Source: Rubrivivax sp. (lineage in GTDB: Bacteria > Pseudomonadota > Gammaproteobacteria > Burkholderiales > Burkholderiaceae_C). From it: a stretch of 36,659 bases of DNA. The notes under the pieces are model-generated. The model saw only the letters and a program-made list of their open reading frames with translations. It made no database searches and was not told the DNA's origin. Location: positions 1 through 36,659 of the forward strand of contig JAIXRN010000004.1 in the NCBI GenBank assembly GCA_027485165.1. Direction: 5' to 3'. This document shows, in pieces, positions 1 through 26,807 of this stretch. Both the position numbers and the translations under genes were made by a program. How positions within the stretch are numbered: the first letter of the stretch is position 1; each line of letters opens with the position of its first letter.

Positions 1-2509
1 AGTTCATCGCGTTCAGGTCGGCGGTTTCCAGGGCGGCCACGTCGGCCGTTTCCATGGCACGCAGCTGCGCCGTGGTCAGTGCAGCCGCCTGCGCCGTGGT
101 GATGGCGGTGATGTCAGCGGTGTCCATGCCGGCGATCTGCGCCGTGGTCAGCGCGCGGATCTGCGCGCTGGACAGCGCCACCAGGTCGTTCGATTCCAGC
201 GCGGCCACTTGCGCCGTCGTCAGGTTGGCCAGCTGGGCGGTGCCCAGGGCTGCGAACTGCGCCGTGGTGAGCGAATTCAGGTCGCTGGTGCTCAGCGCGC
301 TGATCTGGTTGGACGCCAGTGCCGACACCAGGGTCGTGCCCAGCGTCGACAGTTGCGTGGTCGTCAGCGCGTCGATCTGCTGCGACGAGAAGCCGCGGAT
401 CTGCGACGAGTTCATCGCGTTCAGGTCGGCGGTTTCCAGGGCGGCCACGTCGGCCGTTTCCATGGCGCGCAGCTGAACGGTGGTCAATGCGGCGGCCTGC
501 GCGGTGGTCAGCGCGGTGATGTCAGCGGTGTCCACGCCCCCGATCTGTGCGGTCGTCAGTGCGCGGATCTGGGCACTGGACAGCGCCACCAGGTCGTTCG
601 ACTCCACGGCTGCAACCTGGGTCGTGGTGAGGCTGGCGATCTGGGCCGTGCCCAGGGCTGCGAACTGTGCGGTGGTCAGCGAGTTCAGGTCGCTGGTGCT
701 CAGGGCCGTGAGCTGGTTCGACGCGAGGGCGCCCACCAAGGTGGTGCTCAGCGTGGACAGTTGCGCCGTGGTGAGTGCATCGATCTGCTGCGACGAGAAG
801 CCACGGATCTGCGCCGAGTTCATGGCGTTCAGGTCGGCGGTTTCCAGGGCGGCTACGTCGGCCGTTTCCATCGCGCGCAACTGAACCGTGGTCAGGGCCG
901 CGGCCTGCGCCGTGGTCAGCGCCGTGATGTCAGCCGTGTCCATGGCCGCGATCTGCGCCGTGGTCAGCGCGCGGATCTGCGCGCTGGACAGCGCCACCAG
1001 GTCGTTCGATTCCAGCGCGGCCACCTGCGCCGTCGTCAGGCTGGCCAGCTGGGCGGTGCCCAGAGCTGCGAACTGCGCTGTGGTGAGCGAGTTCAGGTCG
1101 CTGGTGCTGAGCGCACTGATCTGGTTGGACGCCAGCGCCGACACCAGGGCCGTGCCCAGCGTGGACAGTTGCGCCGTGGTGAGCGCGTCGATCTGCTGTG
1201 ACGAGAAGGCGCGGATCTGCAAGGAGTTCAGCGCATTCAGGTCGGCTGTTTCCATCGCGGCGACGTCCGCCGTCTCGATGGCCCGCAGCTGCATCGTGGT
1301 CAGCGCAGCGGCTTGCGCGGTGGTCAGCGCGGTGATGTCGGCCGTGTCCACACCCCCGATCTGTGCGGTCGTCAGCGCGCGGATCTGGGCACTGGACAGC
1401 GCCACCAGGTCGTTCGATTCCAGCGCCGCCACCTGTGCGGTGGTGAGGCTGGCGATCTGGGCCGTGCCCAGGGCTGCGAACTGTGCAGAGGTCAGCGAAT
1501 TCAGGTCGCTGGTGCTCAGGGCAGTGAGCTGGTTCGACGACAGGGCGCCGACCAGGGCTGTGCCCAGCGTTGACAACTGGGTGGTCGTCAGGGCGTCGAT
1601 CTGCTGCGACGAGAGGCCGCGAATCTGCGCCGAGTTCATGGCGTTCAGGTCGGCGGTTTCCAGGGCGGCCACGTCGGCCGTTTCCATGGCACGCAGCTGA
1701 ACGGTGGTCAGTGCAGCCGCTTGCGCGGTGGTCAGCGCGGTGATGTCAGCCGTGTCCAAGGCTGCGATCTGCGCCGTGGTCAGTGCGCGAATCTGCGCGC
1801 TGGACAGCGCCACCAGGTCGTTCGATTCCAGCGCGGCCACTTGCGCTGTCGTCAGGCTGGCGATCTGGGCCGTGCCCAGGGCAGCGAACTGCGCGGTCGT
1901 GAGCGAGTTCAGGTCGCTGGTGCTCAGCGCGCTGATCTGGTTGGACGCCAGTGCCGACACCAGAGTCGTGCCCAGCGTCGACAGCTGCGTGGTCGTCAGC
2001 GCGTCGATCTGCTGCGAAGAGAAGCCGCGGATCTGCGCCGAGTTCATGGCGTTCAGGTCGGCGGTTTCCAGGGCGGCCACGTCGGCCGTTTCCATGGCGC
2101 GCAGCTGAACGGTGGTCAGTGCAGCGGCCTGCGCGGTGGTCAGCGCCGTGATGTCGGCCGTGTCCATGGCCGCGATCTGCGCCGTGGTCAGCGCGCGGAT
2201 CTGCGCGCTGGACAGCGCCACCAGGTCGTTCGATTCCAGCGCGGCCACCTGGGCCGTCGTCAGGCTGGCCAGCTGGGCGGTGCCCAGAGCTGCGAACTGT
2301 GCCGTGGTGAGCGAATTCAGGTCGCTGGTGGTGAGCGAACTGATCTGGTTGCTTCCCAGCGCCGACACCAGGGCCGTGCCCAGCGTCGACAGCTGCGCTG
2401 TCGTCAGCGCATCGATCTGTTGGGTCGACAGGGAACGCAGCTGGTTCGAGCCCAGCGCGTTCAGGTCGTTGGTTTCCAGGGCGGCGACGTCAGCCGTTTC
2501 CAGCGCGCG
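1..2509 (-). repeat. 408-bp tandem higher-order repeat inside the octapeptide gene
   Basis: The same landmark (CATGGC or a one-base variant, just before GCAGCTG) recurs at 53, 461, 869, 1277, 1685, 2093 and 2501, each exactly 408 bases apart. One unit encodes 136 residues, or seventeen octapeptides. The copies are nearly identical in DNA, and the gene-proximal copy (about 2102-2509) is the most diverged. Copies alternate between two subtypes: those at about 480-887 and 1296-1703 share a GGVDTADI/NQLTAL signature, while the others carry A[AG][ML]DTADI/NQIS[AS]L. This points to duplication of 816-bp dimers. The array continues past the left edge. Confidence 0.9.
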
Positions 2510-3076
2510 CAGCTGCACCGTGGTCAGCGCGGCGGCCTGTGCCGTGGTCAGTGCCACGACATCAGAGGTGTCCAAGGACACCACCTGGGCGGTGGTGATA
2601 CGGCCGATCTGTGCCGTCGTCAGCGCAGCCAGCTGCGTCGTCGTCAGCGCGGTGAACTGCGCGGTGGCGAGCGACGCCACCTGCTGGGTGGTCAAGGCGG
2701 CGATGTCGCTGCTGCCGACCGCCACCAGGTCTGCCGAGCTCATCGCGCCCAGCTGAGCGGTCGTCAGGGCGGCCATCTGGCTGGTGGTCAGGGCCGATAT
2801 CTGGCTGGTGTCCAGTGCCACGATACCAGCGGTGGACAGCGCTCGCACCTGCTGCGTGTTCAGGGCGGCCAGGTCGGCGGTCTCGAAGCCGAGCATGGCG
2901 CTGGTGGTCAGGGCCCCCAGGCCAGCCGTGGTGATGGCCCCGATCTGGCTGGTCGTCAGCACAGCCAGCTGGGCAGAGCTGAAGCTTGCCCAGTCTTCGG
3001 TGGTGAGCGAGAAAATGTTCTCGGTGCTCAGATTCGCGATCTGAGACGTGCTCATGCTGCTGATGATGGAGGCCAC
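1..3076 (-). CDS. giant octapeptide-repeat protein, N-terminal part (runs off left edge)
   Basis: The minus frame is open from a GTG at 3076 to the window edge, 1025 codons with no stop. The GTG is preceded by a good ribosome binding site (AGAAGGA, 7 bases away); an in-frame ATG lies seven codons later at 3055. From residue 8 onward the protein is an unbroken series of about 127 octapeptides with consensus [LMFI]-x-[TS]-x-[QD]-[ILVF]-x-[ASG], for example LTTAQIAA, LDTADITA and LSSQQIDA. No insertion or deletion breaks the register. There are no cysteines, almost no aromatic residues and few charges. No signal peptide precedes the repeats, so any secretion signal would have to be C-terminal, outside the window. 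Repeats near the N-terminus are diverse, while those after about residue 190 belong to a 136-residue higher-order unit. The T-x-x-[QD] pattern resembles a helix-capping box, so a solenoid of short helices is possible (inference). Function is unknown; a structural, adhesive or surface role is only a guess. Confidence 0.85.
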   Translation of the reverse strand, partial: MASIISSMSTSQIANLSTENIFSLTTEDWASFSSAQLAVLTTSQIGAITTAGLGALTTSAMLGFETADLAALNTQQVRALSTAGIVALDTSQISALTTSQMAALTTAQLGAMSSADLVAVGSSDIAALTTQQVASLATAQFTALTTTQLAALTTAQIGRITTAQVVSLDTSDVVALTTAQAAALTTVQLRALETADVAALETNDLNALGSNQLRSLSTQQIDALTTAQLSTLGTALVSALGSNQISSLTTSDLNSLTTAQFAALGTAQLASLTTAQVAALESNDLVALSSAQIRALTTAQIAAMDTADITALTTAQAAALTTVQLRAMETADVAALETADLNAMNSAQIRGFSSQQIDALTTTQLSTLGTTLVSALASNQISALSTSDLNSLTTAQFAALGTAQIASLTTAQVAALESNDLVALSSAQIRALTTAQIAALDTADITALTTAQAAALTTVQLRAMETADVAALETADLNAMNSAQIRGLSSQQIDALTTTQLSTLGTALVGALSSNQLTALSTSDLNSLTSAQFAALGTAQIASLTTAQVAALESNDLVALSSAQIRALTTAQIGGVDTADITALTTAQAAALTTMQLRAIETADVAAMETADLNALNSLQIRAFSSQQIDALTTAQLSTLGTALVSALASNQISALSTSDLNSLTTAQFAALGTAQLASLTTAQVAALESNDLVALSSAQIRALTTAQIAAMDTADITALTTAQAAALTTVQLRAMETADVAALETADLNAMNSAQIRGFSSQQIDALTTAQLSTLSTTLVGALASNQLTALSTSDLNSLTTAQFAALGTAQIASLTTTQVAAVESNDLVALSSAQIRALTTAQIGGVDTADITALTTAQAAALTTVQLRAMETADVAALETADLNAMNSSQIRGFSSQQIDALTTTQLSTLGTTLVSALASNQISALSTSDLNSLTTAQFAALGTAQLANLTTAQVAALESNDLVALSSAQIRALTTAQIAGMDTADITAITTAQAAALTTAQLRAMETADVAALETADLNAMN

Positions 3077-3161
3077 TGTTCGATCCTTCTCGGCGTTGTG
3101 AGCCCCGCGCGGTGGGTAGGCCTGTGCCCTACCGTCCGCCCTGGGGGCTCCTATCGCCGGA

Positions 3162-3188
3162 ATATCGGTGGCCCTCGTCGCAACTTGA
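3162..3188 (-). promoter_or_regulatory. putative sigma-28 (FliA) promoter of the octapeptide-repeat gene
   Basis: Read on the minus strand the sequence is TCAAGTTG, then 11 bases, then ACCGATAT. The enterobacterial FliA consensus is TAAAGTTT-N11-GCCGATAA, so twelve of sixteen positions match with exact spacing. It lies about 85 bases upstream of the GTG start at 3076. A second site of the same design precedes the chemoreceptor gene at 15664-15690, which is the kind of gene FliA normally controls. No competing sigma-70 promoter was seen in this intergenic region. Confidence 0.6.
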
Positions 3189-15663: not shown

Positions 15664-15690
15664 TTAAGTTGGGCGCCGCGCTGCCGATGT
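15664..15690 (+). promoter_or_regulatory. putative sigma-28 (FliA) promoter of the chemoreceptor gene
   Basis: TTAAGTTG, then 11 bases, then GCCGATGT, against the FliA consensus TAAAGTTT-N11-GCCGATAA: twelve of sixteen positions match at exact spacing. It begins three bases after the xdhC stop and about 40 bases before the chosen start at 15732. Chemoreceptors are classic FliA targets. The site also argues against the upstream in-frame start at 15669, which lies inside it. Confidence 0.65.
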
Positions 15691-15731
15691 ACTGGCCGTG
15701 TGATTGCGCTGGGATGCGCTTGGGGTGGCTC

Positions 15732-17159
15732 ATGCATCGTTCTCTGTCGAACCGGATCGGCATCATTGGCGACCGGATCCTCTTTGCCGCCTTGTGCGTT
15801 TACGCGCTGGCGGCCTGTGCGATCGGCTGGCAGTACGGGCAGGGCCTGACGGGCCTGCTGGGCGCCGGTCTGGCCCTGGCGGTGGGGGGCGCTGCCTTGT
15901 TGGCCCATGGCACCCTGGTCAGCCGCATGGTGCTGGCCCTGGCCCTGTCTGCCCTGGTGGCCTTGCACATCCACATGGGCCGCGGCACGCTGGAATTCCA
16001 CTTTGGCGTCTTCGTCACCCTGGCTTTGCTGCTGGTCTATCGTGATTGGCGCCCTATCGTTGCCGTTGCCGGCTTCTTCGCTGTGCACCACGTGCTGTTC
16101 GACCGCTTGCAGGCCGCAGGCTTTGCGATCTATTGCACGCCCGAGGCCGACTTCATGAAGATCCTCATGCATGCCGGCTACGTGGTGGTGCAGGCGGGGC
16201 TGGAAGTCTTCATGGCCGTCAGCCTGACGGCGGTGGTGCGCCAGAGCGACGAGCTGCAGGCCCTGCTGGCGGCCATCAGTGCCAACGGGCAGATCGCGCT
16301 GGACGTGCGTTACGTGCCCGTGCAGACCCGCGGTGGCAAGGCCCTGAAGGACGTGCTGGAGAAGATGCACGACACCGTGGCCCAGGTGCGCGGCAGCAGC
16401 GAAATGATCCAGATGTCCGGCGGCGAGATCGCCCAGGGCAACCAAGATCTGTCTGGCCGCACCGAACAGTCGGCCGCCAGCCTGCAGCAGACGGCCCGTT
16501 CGGTCGAACAGCTGGCCCAGACGTCCCGCGAGTCGGCGGCTTCGGCCCAGAGCGCAGGCCAGCTGGCTGAAAACGCGGCCCAGGTGGCGCGCCGCGGGGG
16601 TGAAGTGGTGGCCAGTGTGGTGACCACGATGGGCGAGATCAACAGCACATCACAGCGCATGTCGGACATCCTGGGCGTGATCGACGGCATTGCGTTCCAG
16701 ACCAACATCCTGGCGCTGAACGCCGCGGTGGAAGCGGCACGCGCTGGCAGCCAGGGCCGCGGTTTTGCGGTGGTGGCCACCGAAGTGCGCAGCCTGGCCC
16801 AGCGCAGCGCCAGCGCCGCGCGCGAGATCAAGGGCCTGATCGAGGCCAGCGGCGAAAAGGTTCGCTCCGGCACCGAACTGGTGAACCAGGCCGGCGCCAC
16901 GATGAAGGACATCCTGTCGTCAGTGGAGCAGTTCAACCAGGCGATGGCGGGCATCCGCCACGCTGCCGACGTGCAGAGCCAGGGCATGAGCGAGATCAAC
17001 CTCGCCGTGGCCCATCTGGACAACGTGACGCAGCAGAACGCGGCCTTGGTCGAACAGTCGGCGGCGGCAGCAGAAACGCTGCGCAACGAATCGGCCAACC
17101 TGACGCAGAAGGTGTCGGTGTTCAAGCTGGCCCTGGGCGCACAGCCCGCGCTGGCCTGA
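15732..17159 (+). CDS. methyl-accepting chemotaxis protein with multi-helix membrane sensor
   Basis: This 475-residue chemoreceptor signals to CheA/CheW. Residues 14-165 form five or six hydrophobic helices with almost no periplasmic loop, rather than the usual two helices around a periplasmic sensor. Histidines are concentrated there: H79 and H81 in LHIHMGRG, H90 in EFHF, H119-H120 in FAVHH, and H147. No clear HAMP domain is seen. The coiled-coil signalling domain covers about 210-465, with the highly conserved hairpin tip [20 protein letters not shown] and [18 protein letters not shown]. There is no CheR-docking pentapeptide at the C-terminus. The start at 15732 has a G-rich site (GGGGTGG) and sits just below a sigma-28-type promoter; 15714 is an alternative. 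The ligand is unknown. Confidence 0.9.
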
Positions 17160-23186: not shown

Positions 23187-25271
23187 TCACCACACGACGA
23201 TGGGCTCGCTGGCCACCATCGTGTCGCCCGGCTTGCAGCTGAAGGCCTGGGCAAAGGCCGTCATCTGGCTCATCGGCCCCAGGATGCGCCAGCGCCCGGG
23301 CGAATGCTGGCCGGTGCGGATCTGGTTCACCAGCGCTTCCTGGCGCCACTTCACGCGCCAGACCCCAGCGTTGGCGATGAAGAAGCGCTGTTCGGGCGTG
23401 TAGCCGTCCACCAGCGGCGCGGGCTTGCCGGCCTTCTTCTGCCGGTCCAGCGCAATCTGCAGGCCGGCAAAGGCGATCTGCATGCCGCCCACGTCCGACA
23501 GGTTTTCACCCAGCGTCTGGCGGCCGTTCAGGCGTTCGCCGGGCAGGGGTTCGAAGCTGCTGTACAGCGCAGCCACCTTGTCGGCGCGGGCCTTGTAGGC
23601 CTCGACGTCGGCCGGCAGCCACCAGTCGCGCAGGTTGCCCTGGGCGTCGAACTGGCGGCCTCGGTCGTCGAAGTGGTGGCTGATCTCGTGCCCGATGACC
23701 ATGCCGATGGCGCCGTAGTTGCTGGCGTCGTCGGCCTTCTCGTCGAAGAACGGCGGCTGCAGGATGCCGGCCGGGAAGACGATCTGGTTGCCGCTGGCCG
23801 CGAAGGCATTCACGATGTGCGGGCTGGTGTTCCACCGCGTGCGGTCCACCGGGCGCTGCAGGTCGGGCAGGCGGTCGGCCGTAGCCCAAGCGGCCACCTT
23901 CAGCAGGTTGCCCAGGTAGTCGTCGGGGGCCAGCACCAGGCCTTCGTAGCTGCGCCAGCGCTCGGGCGCGCCGATCTTGGCCGTCATCGCTTCCAGCTTG
24001 CCCAGCGCCACCTTTTGCGTGGCCGGGCTCATCCAGGGCGATGCCTGGATGCGCTGGCGCATGCCAGCGCGGATGTCTTCGACCATCTGCAGGGCCTTGG
24101 CCTGGGCCTGGGGGCTGAAGGCCTTGGCCGTGAACAGCTCGCCCAGCGTCTGGCCCAGCGGGTTGCCGCCCGTGCGCCCGCCGATCTGCATGATCACGTC
24201 TTCCACGCGCGGCGGCGGCGTCTTCAAGCCGCGCTGCGCGCCTTGCGTGTAGTCGAAGTGCGATTGCGCCAGCCGCTTCGGCCCCTGCGGGGCCACGTCG
24301 GCCAGCAGACGCACGCGCAGGTAGTCGCGCCAGTCGTCCATCGACGCCGTCTGCACCAGCTGCGCCATGGCCTGCGCGAAGCCGGGCTGGCCCAGAACGA
24401 TGGGGGTCTTGCCGTCGGCGATGCCGGTGTTGCCGGTGTAGGTGGCGAGGTAGCTGCGCCAGTCCATGCCTGGCGCCAGGGCCTGCAGGCTGGCCACCGT
24501 GACGGGGTTGTAGTTGGCGTTCGGGTCGCGGCGTTGCACGCGGTCGGTGGTGGCGGCGGCAAGCTGGGTTTCGAAGGCCAGTAGGCGGTCGACGCTGGCT
24601 TCGGCGTTCGCTTCGGTGGCCGCACCCGCGGCTAGCAGCAGCGTGGCGGCGTGGCGGCGGTAGGCCGCCAGCACGCGCTGGCTGTTGGCGTCGGTCTTGG
24701 TGTAGTCGTCGCGGTCGGGCAGGCCCAGGCCGGACTGGGACATCGACAGCACGTGGCGCGTGGCGTCCTTGGCGTCGATGCCCACGAACAGCGCCATCGG
24801 CGCGGCCACCTGCAGCCGGGCCAGGTCGGCCAGCAGGGCGGGTAGCTGTTCGCGCTGCACGCCGGCGATGCGGTCCAGCATGGGCTGTACGGCCTTCAGG
24901 CCCTGGCGTTCGATGGCGGCTTCGTCCATGCCGCTGCGGTAGTAGGCCGACAGCAGCTTCAGCCCCGGGGTGGTGGCGCGGGCGGGGTCGGCCGCCAGTT
25001 CGCGCAGCGCGGCTTCCAGCAGCTGGTCGTTGGCGCGGGCCAGGGTGTCGAAGCTGCTGACGCGGGCGCGGTCGGGCGGCATGTCGGCGCTGGCTTTCCA
25101 GCGGCCGTTCACGTACTCATCGAAGTCCTGGCAGGCGCTGGCCGGGGGCGTGGGGGCGGCCGGCTGGGCGGTAGGCTGGGCCGTGGCGGGCGTGGCCAGG
25201 GCCAGGCCGCTGGCCAGCAGCAGGGCGGGCAGGGGCTGAAGGCGCAAGAAGGCGGGGCGGTGTGGGGTCAT
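23187..25271 (-). CDS. M13 family zinc metallopeptidase (PepO/neprilysin type)
   Basis: This 694-residue endopeptidase is probably periplasmic. A signal peptide covers about residues 1-32 (LPALLLASGLALATPATAQ). The N-terminal M13 domain begins CQDFDEYVNGRWKA, with D-[FL]-x-x-Y-V-N-G-x-W conserved. The catalytic part contains NAFAASGNQIVFPAGILQPPFF, the zinc site H528-E529-I-S-H532, and GENLSDVGG, whose Glu is the third ligand. The protein ends with the family's usual Cys and terminal Trp (SCKPGDTM...VVW). ATG at 25271 is chosen because it precedes the signal peptide; the same frame is open much further upstream, but only as the complement of sbcB. The gene is divergent from sbcB, with 81 bases between the starts. 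Confidence 0.92.
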   Translation of the reverse strand: MTPHRPAFLRLQPLPALLLASGLALATPATAQPTAQPAAPTPPASACQDFDEYVNGRWKASADMPPDRARVSSFDTLARANDQLLEAALRELAADPARATTPGLKLLSAYYRSGMDEAAIERQGLKAVQPMLDRIAGVQREQLPALLADLARLQVAAPMALFVGIDAKDATRHVLSMSQSGLGLPDRDDYTKTDANSQRVLAAYRRHAATLLLAAGAATEANAEASVDRLLAFETQLAAATTDRVQRRDPNANYNPVTVASLQALAPGMDWRSYLATYTGNTGIADGKTPIVLGQPGFAQAMAQLVQTASMDDWRDYLRVRLLADVAPQGPKRLAQSHFDYTQGAQRGLKTPPPRVEDVIMQIGGRTGGNPLGQTLGELFTAKAFSPQAQAKALQMVEDIRAGMRQRIQASPWMSPATQKVALGKLEAMTAKIGAPERWRSYEGLVLAPDDYLGNLLKVAAWATADRLPDLQRPVDRTRWNTSPHIVNAFAASGNQIVFPAGILQPPFFDEKADDASNYGAIGMVIGHEISHHFDDRGRQFDAQGNLRDWWLPADVEAYKARADKVAALYSSFEPLPGERLNGRQTLGENLSDVGGMQIAFAGLQIALDRQKKAGKPAPLVDGYTPEQRFFIANAGVWRVKWRQEALVNQIRTGQHSPGRWRILGPMSQMTAFAQAFSCKPGDTMVASEPIVVW

Positions 25272-25352
25272 GGTGCTTCCAGAGGTGGGCACGCGGCAGC
25301 GTAGACCGCAAGCGTAAGCCCAGCGCGCCAGGCTTGCGCTATCGTGCCTCGC

Positions 25353-26807
25353 ATGGCGGATTTGAGCTTCTACTGGCACGATTACGAAACCTTCGGCGTG
25401 GTGCCGCGCCGCGACCGGCCCGTGCAGTTTGCAGGCGTGCGCACCGACGCCGACCTGAACGAGATCGGCGAGCCGCAGATGTTCTTCTGCCGCCCCGCGC
25501 CCGACACCCTGCCCGAACCCGAAGCCGTGCTGGTGACGGGCATCCTGCCCCAGCAGGCGCTGCAGCAGGGCCTGCCCGAAAACGAATTCGCGGCCCGCAT
25601 CGAAGCCGAACTGGCGCGCGACGGCACCGTGGGCGTGGGCTACAACAGCATCCGCTTCGACGACGAAGTCACGCGCTTCCTGTTCTGGCGCAACCTGATC
25701 GACCCCTACGCGCGTGAATGGCAGAACGGCTGCGGACGCTGGGATTTGCTGGACGTGGTGCGCGCCACCTGGGCTCTGCGGCCCGACGGCATCACCTGGC
25801 CGCTGCACACCGAAGGGCCGCTGCAGGGCCGGCCCAGCTTCAAGCTGGAACACCTGACGCGTGCCAACGGCCTGGCGCACGAAGCCGCGCACGACGCGCT
25901 GTCCGACGTGCGCGCCACCATCGCCGTGGCGCGGCTGGTGAAAGCGCAGCAGCCGCGGCTGTGGGACTTCTGCCTGAAGCTGCGCAAGAAAGACGCCGTG
26001 CTGGCCGAGATGGGCAGCGGCAGGCCTTTCGTGCACTTGTCGGGCATGTACCCGGTGGAACGCGGCTGCCTGGCCATCGTCTGGCCGCTGGCCCCGCACC
26101 CGAAGAACAAGAACGAGGTCATCGTCTGGGACCTGGCCCACGACCCGCGCGAGCTGGCCGGCCTGGACGCCGAGACCGTACGCCGGCGCCTCTACACCCG
26201 GCAGGACGAATTGCCCGAAGGCGAGCAGCGCCTGCCGATCAAGACCATCCACATCAACAAGTCGCCCATCGTCATCGGCCAGCTGCGCACGGTGCAACCC
26301 GTGGCTGCGCGCTGGGGCCTGGACATCGCGCTGGCGCAGCAGCATGCCGAGCATGCGGCCGCCCTGGGCCGCAGCCTGGACGCGCTGTGGCCCGCGGTTT
26401 TTGCGCGCGAAGCACCGGCCGGGCCGGTGGACGTGGACGAAGACCTGTACGGCGGCTTTGTCGGCAACGAAGACCGGCGCAGCCTGCAGCGCCTGCGCGA
26501 ACTGTCGCCCGCGGCGCTGGCGGCCAAGCGCCCGGCCTTCGACGACCCGCGGCTGGACGAACTGCTGTTCCGTTACCGCGCGCGCAACTTCGACCACACG
26601 CTGACCGACGCCGAACGCGAACGCTGGCAGCAGCACCTGGCCGACCGCCTGCTGCATGGCCAGGGCGGGGCACTGACGCTGGAACGCTTTCTGGAGCGCG
26701 TGGACACCCTGGCCGAGGCCGCCATTGAACGCGATGACGAACGTGCCCAGGGGCTGCTGGACGCGCTGGTGGACTACGCCCAGAGCATTGCGCCTGAAGG
26801 CGCCTAA
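25353..26807 (+). CDS. sbcB: exodeoxyribonuclease I
   Basis: This 484-residue enzyme degrades single-stranded DNA 3' to 5' and acts in recombination and mismatch repair. The DnaQ-type exonuclease motifs are in order: FYWHDYETFG (Asp and Glu metal ligands) near residue 9, GYNSIRFDDEVTRF near 97 and HEAAHDALSDVRATIAVARL near 178. The ExoI-specific SH3-like and C-terminal domains follow, with PIKTIHINKSPIV and FRYRARNFDHTLTDAERERW, both typical. ATG at 25353 gives MADLSFYWHDYE; GTG at 25344 would add three residues. No clear Shine-Dalgarno sequence is seen. It converges on the PBP1A gene over a repeat with hairpins. Confidence 0.93.
   Translation: MADLSFYWHDYETFGVVPRRDRPVQFAGVRTDADLNEIGEPQMFFCRPAPDTLPEPEAVLVTGILPQQALQQGLPENEFAARIEAELARDGTVGVGYNSIRFDDEVTRFLFWRNLIDPYAREWQNGCGRWDLLDVVRATWALRPDGITWPLHTEGPLQGRPSFKLEHLTRANGLAHEAAHDALSDVRATIAVARLVKAQQPRLWDFCLKLRKKDAVLAEMGSGRPFVHLSGMYPVERGCLAIVWPLAPHPKNKNEVIVWDLAHDPRELAGLDAETVRRRLYTRQDELPEGEQRLPIKTIHINKSPIVIGQLRTVQPVAARWGLDIALAQQHAEHAAALGRSLDALWPAVFAREAPAGPVDVDEDLYGGFVGNEDRRSLQRLRELSPAALAAKRPAFDDPRLDELLFRYRARNFDHTLTDAERERWQQHLADRLLHGQGGALTLERFLERVDTLAEAAIERDDERAQGLLDALVDYAQSIAPEGA

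Follow-up and report, generated by a model that had tools for sequence, protein, structure and literature searches.

A giant octapeptide-repeat gene in the genome of a Rubrivivax species is probably controlled by the flagellar sigma factor FliA (sigma-28), and its product is likely glycosylated by a GT41 glycosyltransferase, exported by an LssB-type type I secretion system (T1SS) and displayed at the cell surface. The gene lies on the reverse strand of the window, by which we mean the whole stretch of 36,659 nucleotides (nt) that was analysed. Its 5′ part occupies positions 1–3076 (−), running from a GTG start codon at 3076, with an alternative ATG start 21 bases inside, to the start of the contig (C97), which cuts the gene. 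Of the encoded product, 1024 residues are present. They match the ALTTAQ repeat (PF20080) in 31 stretches with 816.5 bits against a cut-off of 26.4, in an octapeptide register with Thr or Ser at two positions, Gln or Asp, and Leu, Ile or Val. Ser and Thr together make up 26.6% of these residues, and Cys and Lys do not occur among them. The octapeptides form a higher-order tandem array with a unit of 408 nt (136 amino acids, or 17 octapeptides), of which Tandem Repeats Finder reports 6.3 copies at positions 1–2551 (−) with 85% matches. A second contig, C64, starts in the same repeat type and ends in a domain resembling the self-processing module (SPM) of FrpC; it probably carries the 3′ end of the same gene. 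Relatives with both ends visible have open frames of about 2,700–5,400 amino acids from stop to stop, and two full-length ones, of 4315 and 4402 amino acids, contain 80–81 PF20080 stretches each. Rhizobacter has an additional, shorter tandem ALTTAQ copy of 953 amino acids. Rhizobacter Root1238 and Ideonella paludis (L300–L304) each carry two tandem ALTTAQ genes, all four frames of which end in the SPM-like domain, while in one divergent gene of the genus (L159, in genome G025) the repeats resume after that domain.

The N-terminus reads MAxxIxx, with M1, I5, Q12, I13, D28 and W29 invariant in 10 sequences, and no signal peptide was seen in the product on inspection by eye. A single-sequence AlphaFold model of residues 1–300 (mean pLDDT 73.6, exceeding 80 across most of residues 1–170) places one short helix in each octapeptide, and the repeat is accordingly predicted by the model to fold as a solenoid, that is, a long stalk. 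Many bacterial proteins contain ALTTAQ repeats; the name of the family implies no function, and the word ‘ALTTAQ’ was absent from the open-access literature searched. Among 120 listed PF20080-type proteins, PF00353, the RTX domain, occurs in two, and PF05860, the two-partner-secretion domain, in three. A structural counterpart is HeliScrew4 (PDB 9zem), which has an octapeptide repeat of the AALTPEQI kind and matches with an E-value of 1.3e-14 over 108 residues; it is a 120-residue chain of unstated origin, and a search for a paper on it found none.

Upstream of the start codon, positions 3163–3188 (−) hold an exact, 13/13 match to the FliA-type promoter pattern TCAAGTT-N13-CCGATA. In its extended form the site spans 3188–3162 (−) and reads TCAAGTTG-N11-ACCGATAT, scoring 12/16 against the Escherichia coli FliA consensus TAAAGTTT-N11-GCCGATAA. 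Its last base, 3162, is 85 bases from the GTG at 3076 (86 when counted from the end of CCGATA), so that the first-pass annotation, which had reported a 12-of-16 match with exact spacing 85 bases before the start, was accurate in each of these particulars. In a window scan with TMAAGTT-N13-CCGATA, this site is the sole mismatch-free match, and five matches are found at up to three mismatches against 1.98 expected. A second, weaker site, TTAAGTT-N13-CCGATG, with two mismatches, lies at 15664–15689 (+), at the start of a frame (15669–17156) that has a PF00015 MCPsignal domain; the earlier remark that the window's other FliA-like site accompanies a chemoreceptor gene likewise holds. Across the whole 4.63-Mb assembly, TCAAGTT-N13-CCGATA has one exact match, the site at 3163–3188, and two exact matches when the spacer may be N13 or N14. 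At one mismatch it has seven matches compared with five for the reversed pattern, one of the seven preceding a CheY-like frame as judged by eye. At one mismatch the single-genome scan is therefore near noise, and only the exact form discriminates. A genome without fliA had been named beforehand as a finding that would speak against FliA control; this genome encodes FliA (282.6 bits, cut-off 189.6) as well as flagellins.

In 37 same-genus genomes, including this one, TCAAGTT-N{13,14}-CCGATA has 57 exact matches, compared with none for the reversed control. The downstream open reading frames (ORFs) of 53 of these sites were picked by rule and scanned against Pfam, and some of the picks may be in the wrong frame; the remaining four sites comprise three before ALTTAQ genes (genomes G000, G019 and G023) and one at a contig edge (G036:C65). 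Among the 53 ORFs are five flagellins, four FliD, three chemoreceptors (MCP), two FlgM and one CheW, together 15 of the 53, along with four ALTTAQ, three Hpt, three HDOD and two GGDEF proteins. With the three unscanned sites included, ALTTAQ genes stand behind seven of the 57 exact matches. The genome-scale comparison that the first-pass annotation had proposed thus places the site in the company of flagellar genes. FliA is present in 34 and flagellin in 36 of the 37 genomes; being near universal in the genus, their presence or absence provides no test of the regulon.

An alpha-carbonic-anhydrase domain occurs in four of the 53 ORFs, which is unexpected for a motility regulon. Similar small lipoprotein-like proteins of 112–116 residues (L121, L125 and L147) start 11–18 nt behind an exact FliA site in three genomes. 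In 17 of the 37 genomes, as read from coordinates, a flagellin gene has within 5 kb of it a second GT41 paralogue that is more distantly related (for example at G032:C54, G019:C5 and G001:C43) and may glycosylate flagellin.

Conservation of the site before orthologous genes, the other comparison proposed at the outset, was followed first within the genus and then beyond it. The N-terminal 269 residues of the ALTTAQ protein find a match in 18 of the 37 genomes, and 16 of these genes have a readable start, the gene of G004 beginning at a contig end and that of G025 lacking a start. A site scoring at least 11/13 is found within 200 nt upstream of 14 of the 16, the same 14 that have the common N-terminus: six score 13/13, four score 12 and four score 11. 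The end of the site is 76–100 nt from the start codon in 13 of them and 144 nt in one, and the spacer letters vary among the conserved sites. The divergent genes of G002 and G017 reach 10/13. In shuffled genus upstream sequences, scores of at least 11 arose in 16 of 8000 cases and scores of 12 in none of 8000. The gene of G019 has two sites upstream, an exact one at about 250 nt and one of 11/13 at 81 nt.

Beyond the 37 genomes, 204 relatives were found in named genomes and 80 kept, from which 10 were removed because their contigs already belong to the genus set and one (L190) because it nearly duplicates the G009 gene. True N-termini were defined by an ATG at the match, an in-frame stop upstream and no upstream repeats. 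Forty-six relatives qualify; the other 23, which are internal repeats or other starts, served as controls. A site of at least 11/13 precedes 22 of the 46, and one of at least 12/13 precedes 11, close kin among the 46 inflating holders and non-holders alike. None of the 23 controls reaches 11/13, and dinucleotide-shuffled upstream sequences do so in 15 of 4600 cases, with none of 4600 at 12 or more. Holders include Rubrivivax, Sphaerotilus, Leptothrix, Aquabacterium, Pelomonas, Roseateles and Azohydromonas, with 12/13 sites in Sphaerotilus mobilis DSM 10617 and Leptothrix discophora. The other 24 do not reach 11/13. Thirteen of these score no higher than 9, among them both Derxia, two Paucibacter, one Roseateles and one of two Methylibium; the Inhella gene is also without such a site, and three Rhizobacter genes score 10/13. 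The recurrence of the FliA-motif match upstream of orthologous genes makes it likely that FliA transcribes this gene in concert with the late flagellar genes. The link to the motility regulon drawn in the first-pass annotation is thereby strengthened at the level of sequence, through the motif's flagellar co-targets and its conservation in a genome that encodes FliA.

The region between the site and the start codon, the presumptive 5′ untranslated region (3077–3161, −), contains a predicted hairpin near the inferred transcription start. The folding energy of −42.0 kcal/mol corresponds to a z-score of −2.29 against mononucleotide shuffles, and z-scores over the 14 orthologues, from shuffles of the same kind, range from −2.29 to +0.77, making the hairpin a tentative feature. 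A block like GACATGAACCGG directly follows the −10 element on its 3′ side in most of the 14 orthologue upstream regions, and is often followed in turn by predicted hairpins whose sequences differ among the orthologues. A leader of this composition could be an mRNA-stabilizing or regulatory element.

The proposed route to the cell surface draws on a gene cassette. On contig C87, separate from the contig of the ALTTAQ gene, a GT41 glycosyltransferase with TPR repeats, an LssB-type ABC transporter (737.6 bits, cut-off 693.1) and an HlyD protein are encoded consecutively on one strand. HlyD of the cassette type is found in 16 of the 37 genus genomes, with 63.7–87.3% identity in the 15 other loci. 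The ABC gene accompanies it in all 15 (cut by a contig end in one), and the GT41 gene in 14; in G009 and G015 the remainder of GT41 is on another contig, and in G007 and G027 one stop is reported inside the GT41 match. Among 61 genomes searched, GT41 at 70% identity or more occurs in exactly the 16 cassette genomes. Fifteen of these 16 have the ALTTAQ gene, which was not found in the remaining one, G029. Of the 21 genus genomes without the cassette, 18 have no ALTTAQ match and three (G002, G017 and G025) have divergent ALTTAQ genes. Fisher's exact test for cassette against gene returns 1.7e-9 if the three divergent genes are treated as absences and 1.2e-6 if they are treated as presences, values not corrected for shared ancestry. 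The G017 gene is a 1282-amino-acid frame without the SPM-like end and with a GT41 gene downstream, and HlyD has no match in that genome at 1e-30. In G002, the divergent gene (L156, G002:C42) is accompanied on its contig by another type of HlyD and ABC pair, 27–28% identical to those of the cassette, a locus that again pairs the ALTTAQ repeat with type I export.

Beyond the 37 genomes, 44 further ones, which represent part of the 80 kept loci, were searched for the transporter. In 36 of them the ABC protein is matched along its length with at least 56% identity, and Derxia gummosa has it in two pieces; in the four Rhizobium and three Pseudomonas genomes the matches are weaker relatives only. 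Physical linkage was examined at eight places, picked because coordinates hinted at closeness, and in G017. Six genomes from other genera have ABC and HlyD genes on the contig that carries the ALTTAQ gene, at a distance of 4–23 kb: Sphaerotilus mobilis, Leptothrix discophora, Pelomonas V22, Roseateles oligotrophus, Rhizobacter Root1238 and Ideonella paludis. The other two of the eight places (G439 and G445) turned out, from their lengths, to be other contigs. Compared with the GT41 of our genome, the linked enzyme shows about 62–66% identity in Roseateles, Ideonella and Pelomonas and 73% in Rhizobacter over the visible piece, but no more than about 40% in S. mobilis and L. discophora. One strand of S. 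mobilis carries, within 23 kb, the genes for ALTTAQ, GT41, UDP-galactopyranose mutase, a glycosyltransferase, ABC and HlyD in that order, with unassigned ORFs interspersed. A scan of 16 cassette loci found no FliA-like site of at least 11/13 before the cassette; the single match points away from it, and at least three of the loci are truncated on their upstream side. From linkage and co-occurrence we infer that the cassette exports and glycosylates the ALTTAQ protein.

The C-terminal domain points in the same direction. Eight C-termini, that of contig C64 and those of seven relatives, were combined into a profile, which matches the structures 6sjw (E 4.3e-50) and 6sjx (E 5.3e-49) of the FrpC SPM over their length; the 6sjw match covers positions 37–204, a homologous Ca2+-binding domain of about 170–177 residues. 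By this profile comparison, the C-terminal domain of the relatives and of contig C64 is homologous to the FrpC SPM. The FrpC paper describes the SPM as confined to some of the RTX proteins, which are type I secreted, and gives Asp414 as the residue at which FrpC is cleaved (PMC7078468). Of the eight aligned C-termini, seven have Thr and one has Ser in front of the first Pro, and the Asp-Pro pair is accordingly missing. With Thr or Ser in place of the cleaved Asp, clip-and-link activity is not expected of the domain, while Ca2+-driven folding would be. RTX repeats (PF00353) have no match in the two pieces of our gene, whose middle lies outside the assembly, or in the two full-length relatives of 4315 and 4402 amino acids.

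Taken together, these elements suggest a sequence of events. FliA would make the ALTTAQ message alongside the late flagellar genes, and the Ser/Thr-rich chain would be glycosylated in the cytoplasm by the linked GT41. As suggested by the linkage and by how T1SS work, the chain would then leave the cell C-terminus first through the LssB-type system; the FrpC-like domain at its C-terminal end would fold outside the cell with Ca2+, leaving a long helical-solenoid stalk on swimming cells. Such a product could coat swimming cells or serve them as a long adhesin, and a surface coat or first-contact adhesin would be its likeliest roles. The first-pass annotation had offered a surface, sheath or adhesion component; the surface and adhesion roles appear likelier in light of the linked T1SS cassette and the FrpC-like Ca2+-binding domain, while no support was found for a sheath.

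Three other explanations deserve consideration. That the FliA-type site arose by chance and an ordinary sigma-70 promoter drives the gene would sit well with the near-noise behaviour of the single-genome scan at one mismatch and with the 24 of 46 further orthologues that lack an 11/13 site. It is nevertheless highly improbable, given scores of 11–13/13 before 14 of 16 genus genes, 13 of them at a distance of 76–100 nt and with variable spacer letters, and a genus-wide count of 57 against zero with flagellar genes among the targets. FliA control could also be combined with export through the flagellar type III apparatus, as for flagellin, placing the protein on or around the filament. Here the site itself, the lack of a signal peptide and the conserved MAxxIxx N-terminus, which by eye resembles a flagellin start, all fit. 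However, the N-terminus is already in the repeat register (again by eye), the C-terminal domain is of a kind known from T1SS exoproteins, and a T1SS cassette is both linked and co-occurring, so that this route appears quite unlikely.

A FliA-controlled gene might instead encode a long intracellular scaffold, for instance at the flagellar pole, with the cassette serving another substrate. The lack of a classical signal peptide by eye is compatible with such a scaffold, as are G029, with its cassette but no gene, and G017, whose ALTTAQ gene has no SPM-like end and in whose genome HlyD was not detected. It is rendered unlikely by the co-occurrence of gene and cassette and their linkage in six genomes from other genera, by the SPM-like Ca2+ domain, and by a few fusions of the ALTTAQ repeat to domains of exported proteins. 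Export of a glycosylated, FliA-controlled protein to the cell surface by the T1SS remains the preferred reading.

Comparison with known systems sets this arrangement apart in several respects. It shares motif and spacing with the late flagellar FliA class (fliC, fliD, flgM, che and mcp), members of which emerge from the same exact-pattern scan, but the ALTTAQ product does not belong to the known flagellar or chemotaxis parts, and its regulation is a prediction. Compared with PF20080 proteins at large, the subfamily is distinguished by the FliA-type site, by the SPM-like end of its longer relatives and by the linked T1SS cassette. With FrpC and ApxIVA, which are RTX proteins and type I secreted, it has in common the homologous Ca2+-binding domain, the T1SS link and giant size; it differs in having Thr/Ser-Pro where FrpC has the cleaved Asp, and no RTX nonapeptide match. 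RTX repeats are usual in T1SS substrates. LapA and RtxA are giant adhesins with LapB/LssB-type T1SS, and an LssB-type ABC transporter, a giant repetitive product and the lack of a signal peptide (by eye) are common to both groups; here, in contrast, the cassette includes a GT41, RTX matches are absent and the gene carries a FliA-type site. There is about an even chance that the subfamily constitutes a new class of RTX-free T1SS megaproteins, in which a Ser/Thr-rich solenoid, its own GT41 and a cleavage-dead SPM would combine into a FliA-switched coat of swimming cells.

Elsewhere in the window, the frame at 23187–26657 (−) encodes 1156 amino acids, with an M13 peptidase only in residues 509–1150; the 500 residues before it may represent an extension or reflect a misplaced start.

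Tying a large ALTTAQ subfamily to the flagellar regulon, a dedicated exporter and a GT41 would give it a function that can be tested. Giant T1SS adhesins usually accompany the sessile state, with attachment once motility is off. If the present reading is true, a giant exported protein of the motile state would run against that picture.
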